From: Alphaproteobacteria bacterium
GTDB lineage: Bacteria; Pseudomonadota; Alphaproteobacteria; Thalassobaculales; Thalassobaculaceae
Direction: 5' to 3'
NCBI GenBank assembly: GCA_024742605.1
Contig: JANSYC010000018.1
Span: 1 to 61,037, forward strand
DNA: 61,037 nucleotides
In this document: piece after piece, positions 53,852 through 60,798 of the stretch
Position numbering within the stretch: position 1 is the stretch's first letter
How the letters are laid out: every line of letters starts with the position of its first letter
The notes under the pieces: model-generated
Told to the model about the DNA's origin: nothing
Database searches by the model: none
What the model saw: only the letters and a program-made list of their open reading frames with translations
Made by a program: the position numbers and the translations under genes

Positions 53852-54904
53852 TCACGACGGCATGCCACGCCCCAGCCCAAAGGCCTTGAGCAACCGCTCC
53901 GCCGCCAGGGCGGGAGTGGTGTCGCCGGTGGCGACGGCGGTTTCCAGGTCGGCGGCTTCGGCGCGCACCCGGGGGTGGGTCTCCAGGGCCGAGATCAGCC
54001 GGTCCCGCACCATCGCCCACATCCAGCGGACCTGCTGGCCCCGGCGTTTGGCGGCGAAGGCATCGGTGTCGCCCACCGTCGCCGCTTCCAGTGTTTGCCG
54101 GTGGTCCTTCACACTGTCCCAGACCGTATCGATTCCCTGTTTCGACAGGGCCGAACAGGTCAGCACCTTGGCCGACCAGTTCGGGTCGTGCGGCTGCATG
54201 ATGTGCAGCGCGGTCGAGTACTCGCGGGCGGCGACGCGGGCCCGGTCCATGTTGTCGCCGTCGGCCTTGTTCACCACCAGCAGATCGGCGATTTCCAGCA
54301 CCCCCTTCTTGATGCCCTGCAGCTCGTCGCCGGCACCGGGCAGCATCAGGACCATGAAGATGTCGACCATCTCGGCGACCGTCACCTCCGATTGCCCGAC
54401 GCCGACCGTTTCGACCAGCACCACGTCGTAGCCGGCGGCCTCCACCACCACCATGCTCTCGCGGGTGGCACGGGCGACGCCGCCAAGGGTTCCGGCCGAG
54501 GGGGAGGGCCGGATATAGGCGTCCGGATCCTGCACCAGGGTGGCCATCCGGGTCTTGTCTCCCAGGATCGAGCCGCCGGTGCGCCCCGAGGTCGGGTCGA
54601 CCGCCAGCACCGCCACTTTGTGTCCCTGCCCGGTCAGATGCTTGCCGAGGGCCTCGATGAAGGTGCTCTTGCCGACGCCGGGCACACCGGTGATTCCCAC
54701 CCGGTGGGCCGCCCCCGCATGCGGCAGCAGCGTGAGCAGCATCGCCTGGGCCTGCTCCCGGTGGGCGGGTTTGCGGCTCTCGACCAGGGTGATGGCGCGG
54801 GCCACCACCGCCCGATCCCCGGCCAGGACCCCGGCCACGTAGTCGTCGACTGAAAGCTGACGCCGGCGCGGCGCCGCCTCGAAGGTGTGGATCCCGTCTG
54901 TCAT
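53852..54904 (-). CDS. meaB: MeaB/ArgK-family G-protein chaperone of B12-dependent mutases
   Basis: A 350-residue GTPase that protects and reactivates methylmalonyl-CoA mutase and gates its adenosylcobalamin loading. HRVGITGVPGVGKSTFIEALG near residue 67 is the P-loop, AVDPTSGRTGGSILGDKTRM near 98 the switch region, VETVGVGQSEVTVAEMVD near 155 the base-recognition area and NKADGDNMDRA near 213 the GTP-specificity motif. No mutase gene adjoins. ATG 54904 with AGGA upstream was chosen; longer starts would lie in the leader shared with the divergent peptidase gene. Confidence 0.94.
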   Translation of the reverse strand: MTDGIHTFEAAPRRRQLSVDDYVAGVLAGDRAVVARAITLVESRKPAHREQAQAMLLTLLPHAGAAHRVGITGVPGVGKSTFIEALGKHLTGQGHKVAVLAVDPTSGRTGGSILGDKTRMATLVQDPDAYIRPSPSAGTLGGVARATRESMVVVEAAGYDVVLVETVGVGQSEVTVAEMVDIFMVLMLPGAGDELQGIKKGVLEIADLLVVNKADGDNMDRARVAAREYSTALHIMQPHDPNWSAKVLTCSALSKQGIDTVWDSVKDHRQTLEAATVGDTDAFAAKRRGQQVRWMWAMVRDRLISALETHPRVRAEAADLETAVATGDTTPALAAERLLKAFGLGRGMPS

Positions 54905-55068
54905 GCCCGAGTCCTGACCCAGAGCGCCGATCTTGTCGAGTGGGGATCGGTCTGGACGGGGAGAAAGCCCCAGCAAGACCGACTGTGCGCATGGACTGGT
55001 GCGGAGAGCGACCTTTTCAGCGGGTCGGTCGCGGATTACGGTCTCACCTCGCAACCTGGAGTGAGACC

Positions 55069-56199
55069 GTGCCGCAGATTTCCACCGCCTTCGACGGCGG
55101 CAATATCAAGATCCTGGACCAGTCCGATTCTGCCAACATCCGCTTGGAGATCCAGAAGGACGGGCAGGCCGATTTTTATCAATGGTTCTATTTCCGCGTC
55201 TCGGAGACCGGCGGTGCGCCGTTGCGGCTGGTGATCGAGAATGCCGGCGGGTCCAGCTATCCCAAGGGCTGGACCGACTACCGGGCGGTGGCCTCGACGG
55301 ATCGGAAAACGTGGACCCGGGTGGACACCGGCTTCGACGGCACCGCCCTGACCATCACCCATACGCCCGAGGGTGAGGTCTGCTGGTTCGCCTATTTCGC
55401 ACCCTACACCCTGGAGCAGCATGAGGATCTGACCGGCCGCGCGTCGGCAAGCCCGCTTGCCAAGGTCGACCGCCTGGGGGCAACCCTGGATGGCCGCGAC
55501 CTCGACATGATCACCGTCGGCACCGGCCCCAAGCCGCTCTGGATCATCGCCCGTCAGCATCCCGGCGAGAGCATGGCCGGCTGGTTCATGGAGGGGGTGA
55601 TCGACCGTCTGCTGGACCCGCAGGACCCGATCGCCCGCGGCATCGCCAAGGCGGCCACCCTGCATCTGGTTCCCAACATGAATCCCGACGGTGTCTATCG
55701 GGGCCATCTGCGCACCAATGCGGTTGGCACCAATCTGAACCGGGAATGGAAGGATCCAAGCCTAGAGAAAAGCCCGGAGGTGTTTCACGTGGTGCGCCGG
55801 ATGGAGCGGACCGGGGTCGCCTTGTGTCTGGACGTGCACGGGGACGAGGGCCTGCCGTATAATTTCATCGCCGGTTACGAGGGCGCGCCGGATGTGACCG
55901 AGGCGCATCTGGCGCGGCTGAACGGCTACCGCGATCTGTTGGCGACCCTGACGCCGGATTTCCAGACCGAGCACGGCTACCCGAAGGCGGCGCCGGGCAA
56001 GGGCAATCTGACCACGTCGACCGGACACATCGCCAACACGTTTCGCTGTGCCGCGATGACGCTGGAGATGCCGTTCAAGGACACTGCCAACAATCCGATG
56101 CCGGAGGTCGGCTGGTCGCCGGAGCGGTGCAAGACGCTTGGAGCCGATTGTCTGCAGGCGATCTGGATGATGATGGAGCAGTGGGAGAGCGGATTATGA
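55069..56199 (+). CDS. M14-type zinc carboxypeptidase (cytosolic carboxypeptidase-like)
   Basis: A 376-residue peptidase. Residues 1-115 form the beta-sandwich domain usual in this bacterial CCP-like group (AFDGGNIKILD, then DFYQWFYFRVS). The catalytic domain has RQHPGESMAGWFMEG near residue 162 (zinc His and Glu), PNMNPDGVYRGHLRTNAVGTNLNREW near 205 in its parts, LDVHGDEGLPYNF near 257 (zinc His) and MTLEMPFKD near 330 (catalytic Glu). It should trim C-terminal residues from peptides in the cytoplasm. The GTG start at 55069 has TGGAGTGA upstream. First gene of a run of overlapping genes to 60798. Confidence 0.9.
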   Translation: MPQISTAFDGGNIKILDQSDSANIRLEIQKDGQADFYQWFYFRVSETGGAPLRLVIENAGGSSYPKGWTDYRAVASTDRKTWTRVDTGFDGTALTITHTPEGEVCWFAYFAPYTLEQHEDLTGRASASPLAKVDRLGATLDGRDLDMITVGTGPKPLWIIARQHPGESMAGWFMEGVIDRLLDPQDPIARGIAKAATLHLVPNMNPDGVYRGHLRTNAVGTNLNREWKDPSLEKSPEVFHVVRRMERTGVALCLDVHGDEGLPYNFIAGYEGAPDVTEAHLARLNGYRDLLATLTPDFQTEHGYPKAAPGKGNLTTSTGHIANTFRCAAMTLEMPFKDTANNPMPEVGWSPERCKTLGADCLQAIWMMMEQWESGL

Positions 56200-56549
56200 T
56201 CACGGTCTGGGGGCTTAAGAACTGCGACACCTGCAAGAAGGCGCGGAAGGCCCTGGACGCGGCGGGAGCCGCCTACGTGTTCAAGGACGTGCGCGCCGAC
56301 TCGGTCGGTGCCGACGAGATTTCCGGGTGGCTGAAGGCAGTCGGTGGCGATGTGCTGATCAACCGGCGTGGCACCACCTGGCGTGGTCTGCCCGATGCAG
56401 ACAAGGCGCGGGGCGACGGATCCCAGGCGACGGCGCTGCTGGCCGAATCCCCGGCCCTGATCAAGCGCCCGGTTTTCGTCTTCGAGGACGGAACGGTGAT
56501 CGTCGGGTTCGGGGCAAAGGAGAAGGCGTCGGTCGAGGCGCGGCTTTGA
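56196..56549 (+). CDS. ArsC/Spx-like thioredoxin-fold protein
   Basis: A 117-residue protein of the ArsC/YffB/Spx fold. WGLKNCDTCKKARKALDAAG near residue 4 has a CxxC pair, YVFKDVRADSVGADEI follows, NRRGTTWRGL near 57 and ALIKRPVFVFEDG near 88 are the later family motifs. Members reduce arsenate, interact with glutathione or, as Spx, with RNA polymerase; which applies is unknown. It overlaps the peptidase stop as ATGA and the next gene as TTGA, so is part of the operon. Confidence 0.85.
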   Translation: MITVWGLKNCDTCKKARKALDAAGAAYVFKDVRADSVGADEISGWLKAVGGDVLINRRGTTWRGLPDADKARGDGSQATALLAESPALIKRPVFVFEDGTVIVGFGAKEKASVEARL

Positions 56550-57679
56550 GCGAGACCGGCTACGACATAGCCGTGATCGGCGGCGGTCTGGTCGGCTCGG
56601 CGGTGGCCTGGGGGCTGGCGCGTGGCGGCGCGCGGGTCGTGGTTCTGGACGAGGGGGACGATGCGTTCCGGGCCAGCCGGGGCAATTTCGGGCTGGTCTG
56701 GGTGCAGGGCAAGGGCGACGGCCTGGCGGATTACGCCGCCTGGACCCGCGGCAGCGCCGAGATCTGGCCGGACCTGGCGGCCACGCTTGCCTCGGAGGAA
56801 GGGGTGGATGTCGGGCTCCGGCAGCCGGGCGGGATCGAGGCGTTTCTGACCGACGCGGACCGGGACGCGGCGGCGCTCGAGATCAAGCGCATGCACAATC
56901 AGGGCCTGCCGGGCCGCCCCGGCGACGGCGCCAACGACACCAAAATCATTTCCGCCGAGGAGGCCCGGGCGCTTGAACCCTCCCTGGGTCCCGAGGTGAT
57001 CGGCGCCGCGTTCAATCCCCATGACGGACACGTGAATCCGCTCTATCTGCTGCGGGGTCTGCATGCGGGCATGCACCGGCTGGGGGTCGACTACCGGCCC
57101 GGCCAAGGGGTCGCACGGGTGGCGCGGGACGGTGCCGGGTATCGGGTGGTCACCGCGATGGGCGACATCCTGGCGGATAAGGTGGTGCTCGCCGCCGGGC
57201 TCGGGAATATTCCGCTGGCCCCGGCACTCGGTCTTAATGTGCCGACCCGCCCGGATCGCGGCCAGATCCTGGTCACCGAACGGCTGGCGCCGATGCTGGA
57301 CTACGCCCACGTCAATTTCCGCCAGACCGAGGAGGGCACGGTGATGATCGGCGCCAGCTCGAGCGATGCCGGGTTCGACACCTCCCTCGATATCGACACC
57401 TCGGCCCGGCTGGCCGCGCGGGCCCGACGGATCTTTCCCGCCCTGGCCAAGGCGCGGATCGTGCGCACATGGTCGGCGCTGCGGATCATGTCGCCGGACG
57501 GGTTTCCGATCTACGATGAATCCGAGACCTATCCCGGGGTGTTCGTGGTTACCTGCCACAGCGGCGTGACCCTGGCGGCCGTCCACGCGCTGGAACTGGC
57601 ACCCGAGATCCTGGCGGGGCAGCTGTCGGACCGTCTGGCACCCTTCTCCCCGAAACGTTTCGAGAAACTGGAGGCGTGA
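56546..57679 (+). CDS. FAD-dependent amino-acid oxidase/dehydrogenase (DAO family), HcnC-like subunit
   Basis: A 377-residue flavoprotein. YDIAVIGGGLVGSAVAWGLARGG near residue 5 is the FAD dinucleotide motif, FGLVWVQGKG near 48, GGIEAF near 95, GHVNPLYLLRGL near 155 and the late VVTCHSGVTLAAVHALELAPEI are typical of DAO/glycine oxidase relatives. With the small [2Fe-2S] and FAD/BFD proteins downstream it matches the beta subunit of HcnABC-like enzymes such as D-hydroxyproline or opine dehydrogenases. It appears to start at TTG 56546, overlapping the ArsC-like stop. Confidence 0.85.
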   Translation: MSETGYDIAVIGGGLVGSAVAWGLARGGARVVVLDEGDDAFRASRGNFGLVWVQGKGDGLADYAAWTRGSAEIWPDLAATLASEEGVDVGLRQPGGIEAFLTDADRDAAALEIKRMHNQGLPGRPGDGANDTKIISAEEARALEPSLGPEVIGAAFNPHDGHVNPLYLLRGLHAGMHRLGVDYRPGQGVARVARDGAGYRVVTAMGDILADKVVLAAGLGNIPLAPALGLNVPTRPDRGQILVTERLAPMLDYAHVNFRQTEEGTVMIGASSSDAGFDTSLDIDTSARLAARARRIFPALAKARIVRTWSALRIMSPDGFPIYDESETYPGVFVVTCHSGVTLAAVHALELAPEILAGQLSDRLAPFSPKRFEKLEA

Positions 57680-57680
57680 G

Positions 57681-58316
57681 ATGCCAAGTCTGGAGGCTCT
57701 GCTGGTGTTCACCGCGGCGGCGATGGTTCTGAACATCTCGCCCGGTCCCTCGAATCTGTACGTGATGGCCCGCAGCATATCCCAGGGACCGAACGCGGGC
57801 ATGCTGGCGGCGGCGGGACTGGCGCTCGGCTCGCTCGTGCACGTGTTCGGCGCCGCGCTGGGATTGTCGGTTCTGTTCCGGACTTCGGCGGTGGCTTACG
57901 AGATCCTGAAATACGCCGGTGCGGCCTATCTGATCTGGCTGGGTCTCCAGGCCTGGCGCGACAGTGCCCGGCCGATGGACGCGGTGCGGGTCAGCCTGCC
58001 GAAGGCGCCGCGCACGATTCTCCGGGAAAGTGTTCTGGTCGAGGCGCTCAATCCGAAGACCGCGCTGTTTTTCCTCGCCTTCCTGCCGCAGTTCGCCGAT
58101 CCCGGCGCCGGTCCCCTGGTTCCGCAGATCCTGGTCCTGGGCCTGATCGTCACCGTCACCGCGATCCCGTGCGATCTGCTGGTGGCGTTCGCGTCCGGCA
58201 AGGTGGCGGGAGCCCTGCGGCGTGGTCCCTGGATCAAGCGGTTGCAGGATCAGGTGTCGGGATCGATCCTGATCGGCCTCGGCCTGCTGGTCGCGACCTC
58301 CGAACGGACACGATAG
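57681..58316 (+). CDS. LysE-family amino-acid/metabolite exporter
   Basis: A 211-residue membrane protein with six helices. LVFTAAAMVLNISPGPSNLYVMARSISQG near residue 8 carries the LysE/RhtB PGP motif, GLALGSLVHVFGAALGLS follows, AAYLIWLGLQAWR near 81 and VEALNPKTALFFLAFLPQF near 120 are diagnostic. It sits inside the oxidase operon, one base after the DAO gene and 3 before the [2Fe-2S] gene, so it probably exports a product or overflow amino compound of that pathway. Confidence 0.92.
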   Translation: MPSLEALLVFTAAAMVLNISPGPSNLYVMARSISQGPNAGMLAAAGLALGSLVHVFGAALGLSVLFRTSAVAYEILKYAGAAYLIWLGLQAWRDSARPMDAVRVSLPKAPRTILRESVLVEALNPKTALFFLAFLPQFADPGAGPLVPQILVLGLIVTVTAIPCDLLVAFASGKVAGALRRGPWIKRLQDQVSGSILIGLGLLVATSERTR

Positions 58317-58319
58317 GGC

Positions 58320-58625
58320 ATGCAGTTCTCCCGGCTTGAAAGCGCGAATGCGGCTTCACCTGTCCGTTTCACGTGTAACGGACAGGTGGTTGAGGCGCGC
58401 GCCGGCGACAGCGTGGCGACGGCCTTGTTGCTGGCCGGGATCGGCAGCACGCGGGACACCGCCCTGTCGGGTGAAGGACGGGCGCCCTACTGTCTGATGG
58501 GTGTCTGCTTCGAATGCCTGGTTGAGATCGACGGGGTGCCGAACCAGCAGGCCTGTCTGGTCCCGGTTTCCGACGGCATGAGCGTTCGACGACAAGAGGG
58601 CGCGCCGCAGGTATGGGACGGATGA
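58320..58625 (+). CDS. Small [2Fe-2S]-binding subunit, HcnA-like
   Basis: A 101-residue ferredoxin-like protein. VRFTCNGQVVEARAGDSVATALLLAG is the usual opening of HcnA/OoxA-type gamma subunits, YCLMGVCFECLVEIDG near residue 60 holds three cluster cysteines (CxxxxCxxC) and QQACLVPV near 80 the fourth. It carries electrons between flavins of the heterotrimer encoded around it. It overlaps the next gene as ATGA, as expected for subunits made in fixed ratio. Confidence 0.92.
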   Translation: MQFSRLESANAASPVRFTCNGQVVEARAGDSVATALLLAGIGSTRDTALSGEGRAPYCLMGVCFECLVEIDGVPNQQACLVPVSDGMSVRRQEGAPQVWDG

Positions 58626-60013
58626 GCGCGGTGCACGATCTGGTGATCATCGGCGCCGGTCCGGCGGGGATCGCCGCCGCCCGCTCCGCCCGAGCGGATG
58701 GATTGGACGCCGTCCTGCTGGACGAGCAGGCCGAGCCGGGCGGCCAGATCTGGCGCGCGGTCGGTCGGGTCGCGCGGGAACGGCCCGGCGATCTCGGGAT
58801 CTTCGGCGGAAGCTACGCCAAGGGCGCGGGGCCGGTGGCCGACCTGTGGGGCTGCGAGCTCCGTTTCTGCGCGACCGTCTGGCATCTTCACCGAGCCGAG
58901 GACGCCTGGGAGGTGGTCTTCAGCCGGTCCGGCGCGGCCGAGCGGGTGCGGACCAAAACCCTTCTGATTGCGACCGGCGCGATGGAACGCCCGGTGCCGA
59001 TCCCCGGTTGGACCTTGCCGGGCGTCACCACGATCGGCGCCCTGCAGCTGGCCCTCAAACAGTCCGGCGCCTATCCGACCGGGCGCGTGGTGCTGATGGG
59101 TGGCGGGCCACTGGCCCTGCTGCTGGCGTCCCAGTTCAAGGCGGCGGGGGTGCCGATCGCGGCGGAGCTCGACACGGCGCCGGCCAACCGGTTGAGCGTG
59201 GCTGCCCGGTATCTGCCGGGGGCTGTTCTCGGAGCCGCCGACACACTGCTCGACGGGCTGCGGCTGCTGCGCGGCCGCACGGCCATCACCGGTGTCGCGC
59301 CGCTTGAGATCCTGGGCGAGGGGAAGGTCGAGGCGGTGCGGTACCGGGATGGGTCCGGCCTCCATGAAGTTCCCGCCGATCATGTGGCCCTGCACGAAGG
59401 CGTGGTGCCAAATACCCAACTCACACGTCTGCTCGATCTCAATCATGTCTGGAACCCGGTCCAGCGCTGTTTTCATCCGGTGCTCGACCCTTTCGGAGAA
59501 TCCTCGGTAGCGGATGTCTTCGTGGCCGGAGATGGCGGCGGGATTCTCGGCTGGCGCGCGGCGCAGGCGGCCGGCGCCCTGGCGGCCGCTCAGATCGCCT
59601 GGCGCCTCGGAGCCATAGTCGAAAGCGAGCGGGACCTTCGGGCGGCCCACCATCATGGCCGGATCGCGGCGGAGCGGAGGTTGCGCCGCTTCCTCGATGC
59701 GCTGTATCCGGTCCCGGACTGGCTGCGCCTTCCCGAGGACCGAACCACCATCTGTCGGTGCGAGGAGATCAGCGCCGGCCGGGTGCGGGAGATGGCGCGG
59801 CTTGGCTGCGCCGGGCCGAACCAGCTGAAAGCCTATCTGCGGGCAGGCATGGGCGCCTGCCAGGGTCGGATGTGCGGGCTGTCCGTCACAGAGATCCTGG
59901 CCGAGACCCAGGGCCGGACCCCCGAGGAGATCGGATACGGCCGCATCCGCCCTCCAATCAAGCCGGTCACCCTCGACGAACTCGCGAGCCTCTATCAGGA
60001 GCCGACATCATGA
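58622..60013 (+). CDS. FAD/NAD(P)-dependent oxidoreductase with BFD-like [2Fe-2S] domain, HcnB-like
   Basis: A 463-residue alpha subunit. VHDLVIIGAGPAGIAAARSARADG near residue 4 binds FAD; LLIATGAMERPVPIPGWTLPGV near 118 and GRVVLMGGGPLALLLA near 155 form the second nucleotide-binding fold; SVADVFVAGDGGGILGW near 293 closes the FAD domain. The C-terminal BFD-like part has TICRCEEISAGRVREMARLGCAG near 375 and AYLRAGMGACQGRMCG near 405, with four cysteines for an iron-sulfur cluster. The arrangement matches HcnB, OoxA and hydroxyproline dehydrogenase alpha subunits. Confidence 0.92.
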   Translation: MSAVHDLVIIGAGPAGIAAARSARADGLDAVLLDEQAEPGGQIWRAVGRVARERPGDLGIFGGSYAKGAGPVADLWGCELRFCATVWHLHRAEDAWEVVFSRSGAAERVRTKTLLIATGAMERPVPIPGWTLPGVTTIGALQLALKQSGAYPTGRVVLMGGGPLALLLASQFKAAGVPIAAELDTAPANRLSVAARYLPGAVLGAADTLLDGLRLLRGRTAITGVAPLEILGEGKVEAVRYRDGSGLHEVPADHVALHEGVVPNTQLTRLLDLNHVWNPVQRCFHPVLDPFGESSVADVFVAGDGGGILGWRAAQAAGALAAAQIAWRLGAIVESERDLRAAHHHGRIAAERRLRRFLDALYPVPDWLRLPEDRTTICRCEEISAGRVREMARLGCAGPNQLKAYLRAGMGACQGRMCGLSVTEILAETQGRTPEEIGYGRIRPPIKPVTLDELASLYQEPTS

Positions 60014-60798
60014 CCCTTCCTCCCCTCACAACGGCCGAACTGCCCGGCGGTGGCATCAGTTTCCGGAAAACCGGCGACGGACCCGGCCTGTTCTGCCTGC
60101 ACGGGCTGGGCGGCGGGTCGAAGTCCTGGCAGCGCCAGCTGGCGGGCCTGTCGGACAGCTTCACCGTGGTGGCCTGGGACTGCCCCGGTTACGGCGGCTC
60201 CCAGCGTCGGGCGCCGACCGCGCAGAGCTATGCGGACGCCGCGGCCCAACTCATCGAGCATCTGGGGATCGGCCCCTGCTACGTGGTCGGCCATTCCATG
60301 GGCGGGATCGTGGCGGGCCGTCTGGCCGGCAGCCGCCCGGATCTGGTCAGCCGCCTGGTCCTGTCCTGCACATTCTGGGGTGAGGGCGGGGCCGCCGACG
60401 CGCCGATCGGTGCGAACTGGGCCAAGCGCCTGGACGACCGCCGCACGATGGACGACGACAGTTTCGGTCTGGCCCGTGCCACCGGCATGACCGGCCCGGA
60501 CGTGGATGAGGAGACTTTCGAAGCGGTCGCGGAGATCGCAGGAGAGATCAGACTGGACGGCTACGAGGATGCCTGCCGGGTCCTGAGCAGTTCCGACAAC
60601 CGCGATGTGCTGCCCGGCCTGAAGATGCCGGTGATGGTGGTTGACGCCGAGCATGACAGCGTGGTCCGCCGCGACCGGATCGAGCCGCTGGTGGCGATGA
60701 TCCCCGGATGCCGCACGACCACGATGCAGGGGGTCGGCCACGCCCCCTATATCGAGGATGCGGACGGGTACAACGCGATGCTGCGGGCGTTCTTCTAG
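60010..60798 (+). CDS. Alpha/beta hydrolase
   Basis: A 262-residue hydrolase. LFCLHGLGGGSKSWQRQLAGL near residue 27 is the oxyanion-hole strand, VVAWDCPGYGGSQR near 53, VVGHSMGGIVAGRLA near 92 with the nucleophile, VVDAEHDSVVR near 213 the acid and GVGHAPYIEDADGYN near 239 the histidine. It resembles 3-oxoadipate enol-lactonase-type esterases. Its start overlaps the dehydrogenase alpha subunit as ATGA, so it should act on a lactone, ester or amide linked to that pathway; the substrate is not known. Last gene of the operon. Confidence 0.87.
   Translation: MTLPPLTTAELPGGGISFRKTGDGPGLFCLHGLGGGSKSWQRQLAGLSDSFTVVAWDCPGYGGSQRRAPTAQSYADAAAQLIEHLGIGPCYVVGHSMGGIVAGRLAGSRPDLVSRLVLSCTFWGEGGAADAPIGANWAKRLDDRRTMDDDSFGLARATGMTGPDVDEETFEAVAEIAGEIRLDGYEDACRVLSSSDNRDVLPGLKMPVMVVDAEHDSVVRRDRIEPLVAMIPGCRTTTMQGVGHAPYIEDADGYNAMLRAFF

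Follow-up and report, generated by a model that had tools for sequence, protein, structure and literature searches.

What joins the three subunits of a dehydrogenase to a peptidase, an ArsC-like protein, an amino acid exporter and a hydrolase in a single compact gene cluster? Opine-type dehydrogenases have been described from plant-associated, opine-importing bacteria. The cluster in question occupies positions 55069-60798 (+ strand) of a 61,037-nucleotide stretch, referred to below as the window, which is contig JANSYC010000018.1 of an alphaproteobacterium from the family Thalassobaculaceae. An earlier note on this DNA had described seven same-strand genes with named domains that overlap or lie 1-3 bases apart. 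Coordinates and Pfam matches agree with this description: M14_N + Peptidase_M14, ArsC, DAO, LysE, Fer2_4, Pyr_redox_2 + Fer2_BFD and Abhydrolase follow one another, gene by gene, with junctions of -4, -4, +1, +3, -4 (or -13) and -4 bases, so that most neighbours overlap by four bases and only two are separated by gaps. Translation is therefore probably coupled across all seven genes, and their third-position GC content is 0.75-0.86 throughout. We consider it moderately probable, from sequence comparison, that the seven genes form one transcription unit in which a core of the opine-dehydrogenase type oxidises an N-substituted amino acid, with the peptidase and the LysE exporter as plausible helpers. 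In our assessment, it is a known type of dehydrogenase operon in a form peculiar to its lineage, and it does not represent a novel class of system.

The DAO-type, [2Fe-2S] and FAD/BFD proteins are predicted to constitute a heteromeric dehydrogenase with flavin and iron-sulfur cofactors that belongs to the opine-dehydrogenase type (OdhB-C-A). The earlier note had assigned the trimer to the broader class of HcnABC, D-hydroxyproline and opine dehydrogenases, which sequence identity, motifs and trees now narrow to the last of these. The catalytic beta subunit (56546..57679, TTG start, 377 residues, OdhB/OoxB/NoxB-like; DAO family, PF01266, 8.8e-62) is 44% identical to OoxB and 40% to NoxB from annotated plasmid records. 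The OdhA/OoxA/NoxA-like alpha subunit (58622..60013, or from 58613, 463 residues; PF07992, PF04324 and PF17806), predicted to bind flavin adenine dinucleotide (FAD) and a BFD-like [2Fe-2S] cluster, shows 43% identity to OoxA and 38% to NoxA. For the OdhC-like [2Fe-2S] gamma subunit (58320..58625, 101 residues; PF13510, 2.3e-27), the identity to the OoxB-linked gamma subunit reaches 53%. Both plasmid records show gamma and alpha arranged as they are in the window, in which the beta-gamma-alpha order is interrupted solely by the gene for a LysE/RhtB-type amino acid exporter (57681..58316, 211 residues) between beta and gamma.

The characterised OdhABC enzymes come from Pseudomonas putida (nopaline) and Bradyrhizobium (octopine, gene order B1-C-A-B2) and use FAD, flavin mononucleotide (FMN) and [2Fe-2S] clusters as cofactors (PMC4575208). 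We checked all OdhABC motifs described there, and every one was found in the window. The ADP-binding GxGxxG motif is located at the N-termini of alpha (GAGPAG at 14) and beta (GGGLVG at 12), and the C-X4-C-X2-C-X11-12-C motif of gamma is present as C-X4-C-X2-C-X12-C (CLMGVCFECLVEIDGVPNQQAC). The BFD-type cysteines of alpha, CRC ... CQGRMC (CxC...CxxxxC), align with those of OoxA and NoxA, their spacing being assessed by this alignment instead of by the values given in PMC4575208. The Arg-X-Trp motif of beta, a putative FMN site, corresponds to R307-T-W309, of which R307 and W309 are invariant in 31 homologues. A GPNQ block in alpha is common to the window, OoxA and NoxA and is absent from the alpha subunit of D-hydroxyproline dehydrogenase.

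The trees, built without HcnC or HcnABC sequences, like the other beta comparisons, lead to the same group. In a 69-row tree the window beta lies inside a 46-row type-1 group together with OoxB and NoxB (Shimodaira-Hasegawa-like approximate likelihood ratio test, 99), and a 29-row tree recovers it in the same group with a support of 91/90. As D-hydroxyproline references we used trimers encoded beside Pro_racemase genes, which were found by coordinates in five Burkholderiales genomes; none of the four plasmid-record regions read for such a reference contained a heteromeric hydroxyproline cluster. The structural model of beta (predicted local distance difference test score 86) best matches glycine oxidase (4ysh, Z 40.1, 2.5 Å, 360 aligned residues), and L-proline dehydrogenase also scores high (1y56_B, Z 37.0, 3.0 Å, 355 aligned). 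Opine dehydrogenase (7fgp, Z 33.6, 3.4 Å, 357 aligned) and iminodiacetate oxidase (6pxs, Z 33.4, 3.2 Å, 353 aligned) rank lower. A shared fold by itself indicates no substrate.

The arrangement of the genes is not due to chance, because the order M14-ArsC-DAO recurs across the window's family. We surveyed 36 genomes of this family within a set of 98 genomes. The DAO gene is present in 22 of them, and ArsC adjoins it on one contig, either directly or with an M81 gene in between, in 21 of these 22; in the remaining genome the two genes are split between two contig ends. M14 adjoins ArsC in 25 of the 26 family genomes having both. Outside the family, M14 or ArsC was found near DAO in none of the 11 genomes with DAO (0/11) in the same set. 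The gene order for which the earlier note had proposed a search in other genomes is thus conserved inside the family and not outside it; likewise, a consistent separation of the peptidase and ArsC-like genes from the trimer, named there as counting against the proposal, is seen outside the family and not inside.

A second characteristic of the family is the company that the trimer keeps. We counted importers of the polyamine-type, opine-type ATP-binding cassette (ABC) or tripartite ATP-independent periplasmic (TRAP) types within a 6-kb radius, at loci where the sequence extends at least 5 kb to either side of beta. Outside the family, 47 of the 56 loci have such an importer inside this radius, and in the family the queried types were found in 0 of 12 distinct loci (15 loci, including three duplicates). 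This contrast concerns one clade and therefore counts as one event, for which reason its Fisher p-value was given no weight, and the window itself was checked on the upstream side, since its contig ends after the hydrolase gene. Importers are the normal partners of the trimer elsewhere, and the family holds peptidase, ArsC, exporter and hydrolase genes in their place, which bears out the earlier impression that an exporter between subunits and a peptidase are unusual partners. Because the usual importer is gone in the family, the substrate probably forms inside the cell or enters via an unlinked carrier; a CitMHS carrier at two loci (L005 and L008) and DMT genes further off could move substrates in either direction. 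That a whole marine-type family keeps an opine-type dehydrogenase with no importer linked to it, and has peptidases or an exporter in the operon, suggests another source of substrate.

Other partners of the trimer were observed on plasmids. In Rhizobium indigoferae (L177) and Palleronia (L179), an opine-type trimer lies a few kb from genes for succinylglutamate desuccinylase/aspartoacylase, another hydrolase partner, and for RidA-type proteins. On a Paracoccus denitrificans plasmid (L137), the trimer directly follows an aspartate/glutamate racemase gene and a UbiD/UbiX decarboxylase pair, and may possibly act on another class of substrate.

Among the accessory proteins, the peptidase (55069..56199, GTG start, 376 residues) is an M14 zinc carboxypeptidase of the bacterial cytosolic carboxypeptidase (CCP) type (M14D, PaCCP/BcCCP-like). 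Both the CCP N-terminal domain (PF18027, 4.9e-39) and the M14 zinc site (PF00246) are present, and the similarity to bacterial CCPs in the PDB extends over the full length (3l2n, 1.7e-116; also 4b6z and 4a37). The zinc motifs HPGE and VHGDE and the catalytic glutamate in EMPFKD are retained. In the solved CCPs, Lys or Asn at the S1' site has been proposed to favour acidic residues (PMC3940198); it is a residue of specificity and not a criterion of the M14D fold family. We rejected a transfer of the glutamate specificity of BcCCP to the window peptidase, whose key S1' residue is Gly. The operon also provides a context for bacterial CCP-type M14 peptidases.

The ArsC/YffB/Spx-like thioredoxin-fold protein (56196..56549, ATG start, 117 residues; PF03960, 7.2e-14) has a CxxC motif in NCDTCKK and matches the NCBIfam model TIGR01617 above its cut-off and PRK10853 below its cut-off. 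For the exporter (PF01810, 1.6e-36), the closest NCBIfam models are those of homoserine/threonine efflux, all below cut-off. The alpha/beta hydrolase (60010..60798, 262 residues; PF00561/PF12697) has Ser96, Asp216 and His244 invariant among the aligned operon-linked copies. Its model most resembles esterases and 3-oxoadipate enol-lactonase, which tie at Z 31-32; with esterases, lactonases and haloperoxidases among the tied top matches, we set aside reading a function from the fold, which gives no substrate.

Compared with OdhABC, OoxAB and NoxAB from Pseudomonas putida, Bradyrhizobium japonicum and Agrobacterium Ti plasmids, the window shares the beta-gamma-alpha order, the cofactor motifs and the type-1 group. 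It differs in having LysE between beta and gamma as well as the peptidase, ArsC-like and hydrolase genes, and in lacking an adjoining importer, RidA, arginase or ornithine cyclodeaminase. The same beta1-gamma-alpha core is found in the Bradyrhizobium-type OdhB1-C-A-B2 clusters of Reyranella, Azospirillum and Paraburkholderia. Those clusters adjoin polyamine-type ABC importers and contain a beta2 gene, which the window lacks, whereas three family members (G004, G015 and G023) do have beta2-like genes. Heteromeric D-hydroxyproline dehydrogenase and HcnABC have the same overall kinds of subunits.

In the reaction that we envisage, the dye-linked trimer would oxidise an N-substituted amino acid, that is, a secondary-amine, opine-like compound, at its C-N bond. 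The hydride would be transferred to the FAD of beta, from which electrons would flow over FMN, bound where beta and alpha meet, and over the iron-sulfur clusters into the respiratory chain. The resulting imine would break down and release the free amino acid together with a 2-oxo acid. The M14 peptidase may plausibly free the substrate from small peptides or conjugates, and LysE may drain an excess of amino acid. The hydrolase and the ArsC-like protein would have independent accessory functions and travel with the operon. Besides the gene anatomy, identities, motifs, trees, fold matches and importer contrast given above, two observations speak for this reading: RidA, which handles imines, recurs beside relatives of the trimer elsewhere, and other family members have a second metallopeptidase, M81, at the same spot.

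Several observations weigh against this reading. The trees disagree on the window's family, which lies either between OoxB and NoxB or beside both, so that the substrate cannot be read from the position of beta, and the type-1 group includes many uncharacterised branches; the operon offers a compact set for assigning a substrate to one of them. In the loci of the window's family, by contrast, no gene for RidA was found next to the trimer. Gly319 of the peptidase aligns with the S1' residues Lys330 of BcCCP and Asn321 of SdCCP and PaCCP, in which the window peptidase differs from the solved enzymes, and bacterial CCPs have so far been without clear activity (PMC3940198). Further counter-evidence comes from a wider sample of 385 genomes of the class, in which we read 30 M14 loci. 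Three of these, the window and two family members, have the full order, and two other families (f34 and f135, three genomes each) carry M14-ArsC pairs without the trimer; the other 21 loci have no ArsC within about 1.5 kb.

Inside the family, too, four relatives with small genomes show loss or decay of the trimer, and all of them kept the peptidase, ArsC and hydrolase genes. No recognisable remains of the trimer were found between ArsC and hydrolase in two of them (G016 and G028). In G017, a frameshifted N-terminal piece of beta persists between these two genes (L116, 7439-7650), and in G024 a C-terminal piece of alpha with lost cysteines (L117, 6985-7281). One TAA was counted in the M14 match of G017, and likewise in that of G008, whose trimer is whole. 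Since the three partners were kept after the loss of the trimer, they are probably useful to these relatives independently of it.

The weightiest rival, which we regard as possible though somewhat doubtful, is that two unrelated housekeeping modules, peptidase-ArsC and an opine-dehydrogenase cassette, share one promoter and no common substrate. The differential loss just described fits it, as does the occurrence of the trimer alone or with importers elsewhere. The peptidase-ArsC pair is a module in its own right, joined to the trimer in the window's family, because f34 and f135 hold it without the trimer and other M14 loci are without ArsC. However, nearly all family genomes holding both modules have preserved their linkage, and an additional metallopeptidase, the MlrC-like M81, is inserted exactly between ArsC and beta at three loci (L119, L121 and L122, from G004, G009 and G018), which together suggests selection for the neighbourhood.

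At the other extreme, all seven products could belong to one pathway, in which the peptidase frees the substrate, the trimer oxidises it, the hydrolase trims the product and LysE exports the amino acid. We judge this unlikely. In its favour are the coupling of translation throughout, the M14-ArsC-DAO order conserved in the family, and the absence of an importer where M14 or M81 peptidases and, in some genera, an exporter are present. In several genera the hydrolase gene also closes the beta-gamma-alpha or beta-gamma-alpha-beta2 series on its 3' side, the second, OdhB2-like beta preceding it in G004, G015 and G023. However, LysE is missing in most genera: it occurs between beta and gamma in the genomes read from the window's genus, g5 and g12, and L005 and L008 have an XRE-cupin regulator in its place, the CitMHS-type carrier lying downstream. 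The hydrolase orthologue is located elsewhere in g9 and g12, although all 23 family hydrolases in the tree form one clade (99/97), and none was found in g3. In Nisaea (L010 and L013) and also in G013, a CMD protein gene precedes the hydrolase gene. Neither the set of seven genes nor a joint pathway is obligate, because other families have peptidase and ArsC paired with no trimer, and some relatives dropped the trimer but not its partners. The free-oxidise-export route proposed earlier is possible as such, but a single obligate pathway is not supported.

It is quite improbable that the trimer belongs with the D-hydroxyproline, L-proline or HCN-synthase-type (glycine) enzymes: the subunit plan is the same and the beta fold is ThiO-like, but beta lies on a branch separate from the context-defined hydroxyproline enzymes, a clade uniting them being rejected (approximately unbiased test, p-AU 0.011), alpha carries the GPNQ block of OoxA and NoxA, and the operon contains no proline racemase/epimerase, the one clear Pro_racemase match of the genome being on another contig.

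A more speculative extension, which we hold to be highly improbable, is that the trimer has been converted in this family from the use of imported opines to the clearance of N-carboxyalkyl amino acids arising inside the cell, e.g., glycation adducts or endogenous opines. Peptidases would free these from peptides, the trimer would cleave them to amino acid and 2-oxo acid, and LysE would export the surplus. The evidence for it consists of the importer loss and the peptidase linkage. We found no literature link between Thalassobaculum and opines, and the titles and abstracts searched contained no report of a bacterial opine dehydrogenase clearing glycation products. If true, such a cytosolic clearing operon would represent a new physiological role for the opine-type dehydrogenase family.

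As for the borders of the operon, the sole room for its promoter is the divergent intergenic region of 164 bases (54905..55068) that separates the peptidase gene from meaB, which lies on the minus strand with its ATG at 54904. No sigma-70-like site was found in a search upstream of the peptidase gene. A perfect 10-base inverted repeat (55038-55047 / 55061-55070, 13-base spacer) overlaps the GTG start of the peptidase gene; we set it aside as an operator, since it is imperfect in a same-genus copy (L003). On the other side, the contig ends 239 bases past the last gene, which leaves the 3' limit of the transcription unit out of view. Downstream of the operon in several family members (L007, 14333-18050, and equivalent stretches), a DUF1194 (vWA-like) gene and a DUF6635 gene recur, together with an opposite-strand gene of 581 residues that has no Pfam match.

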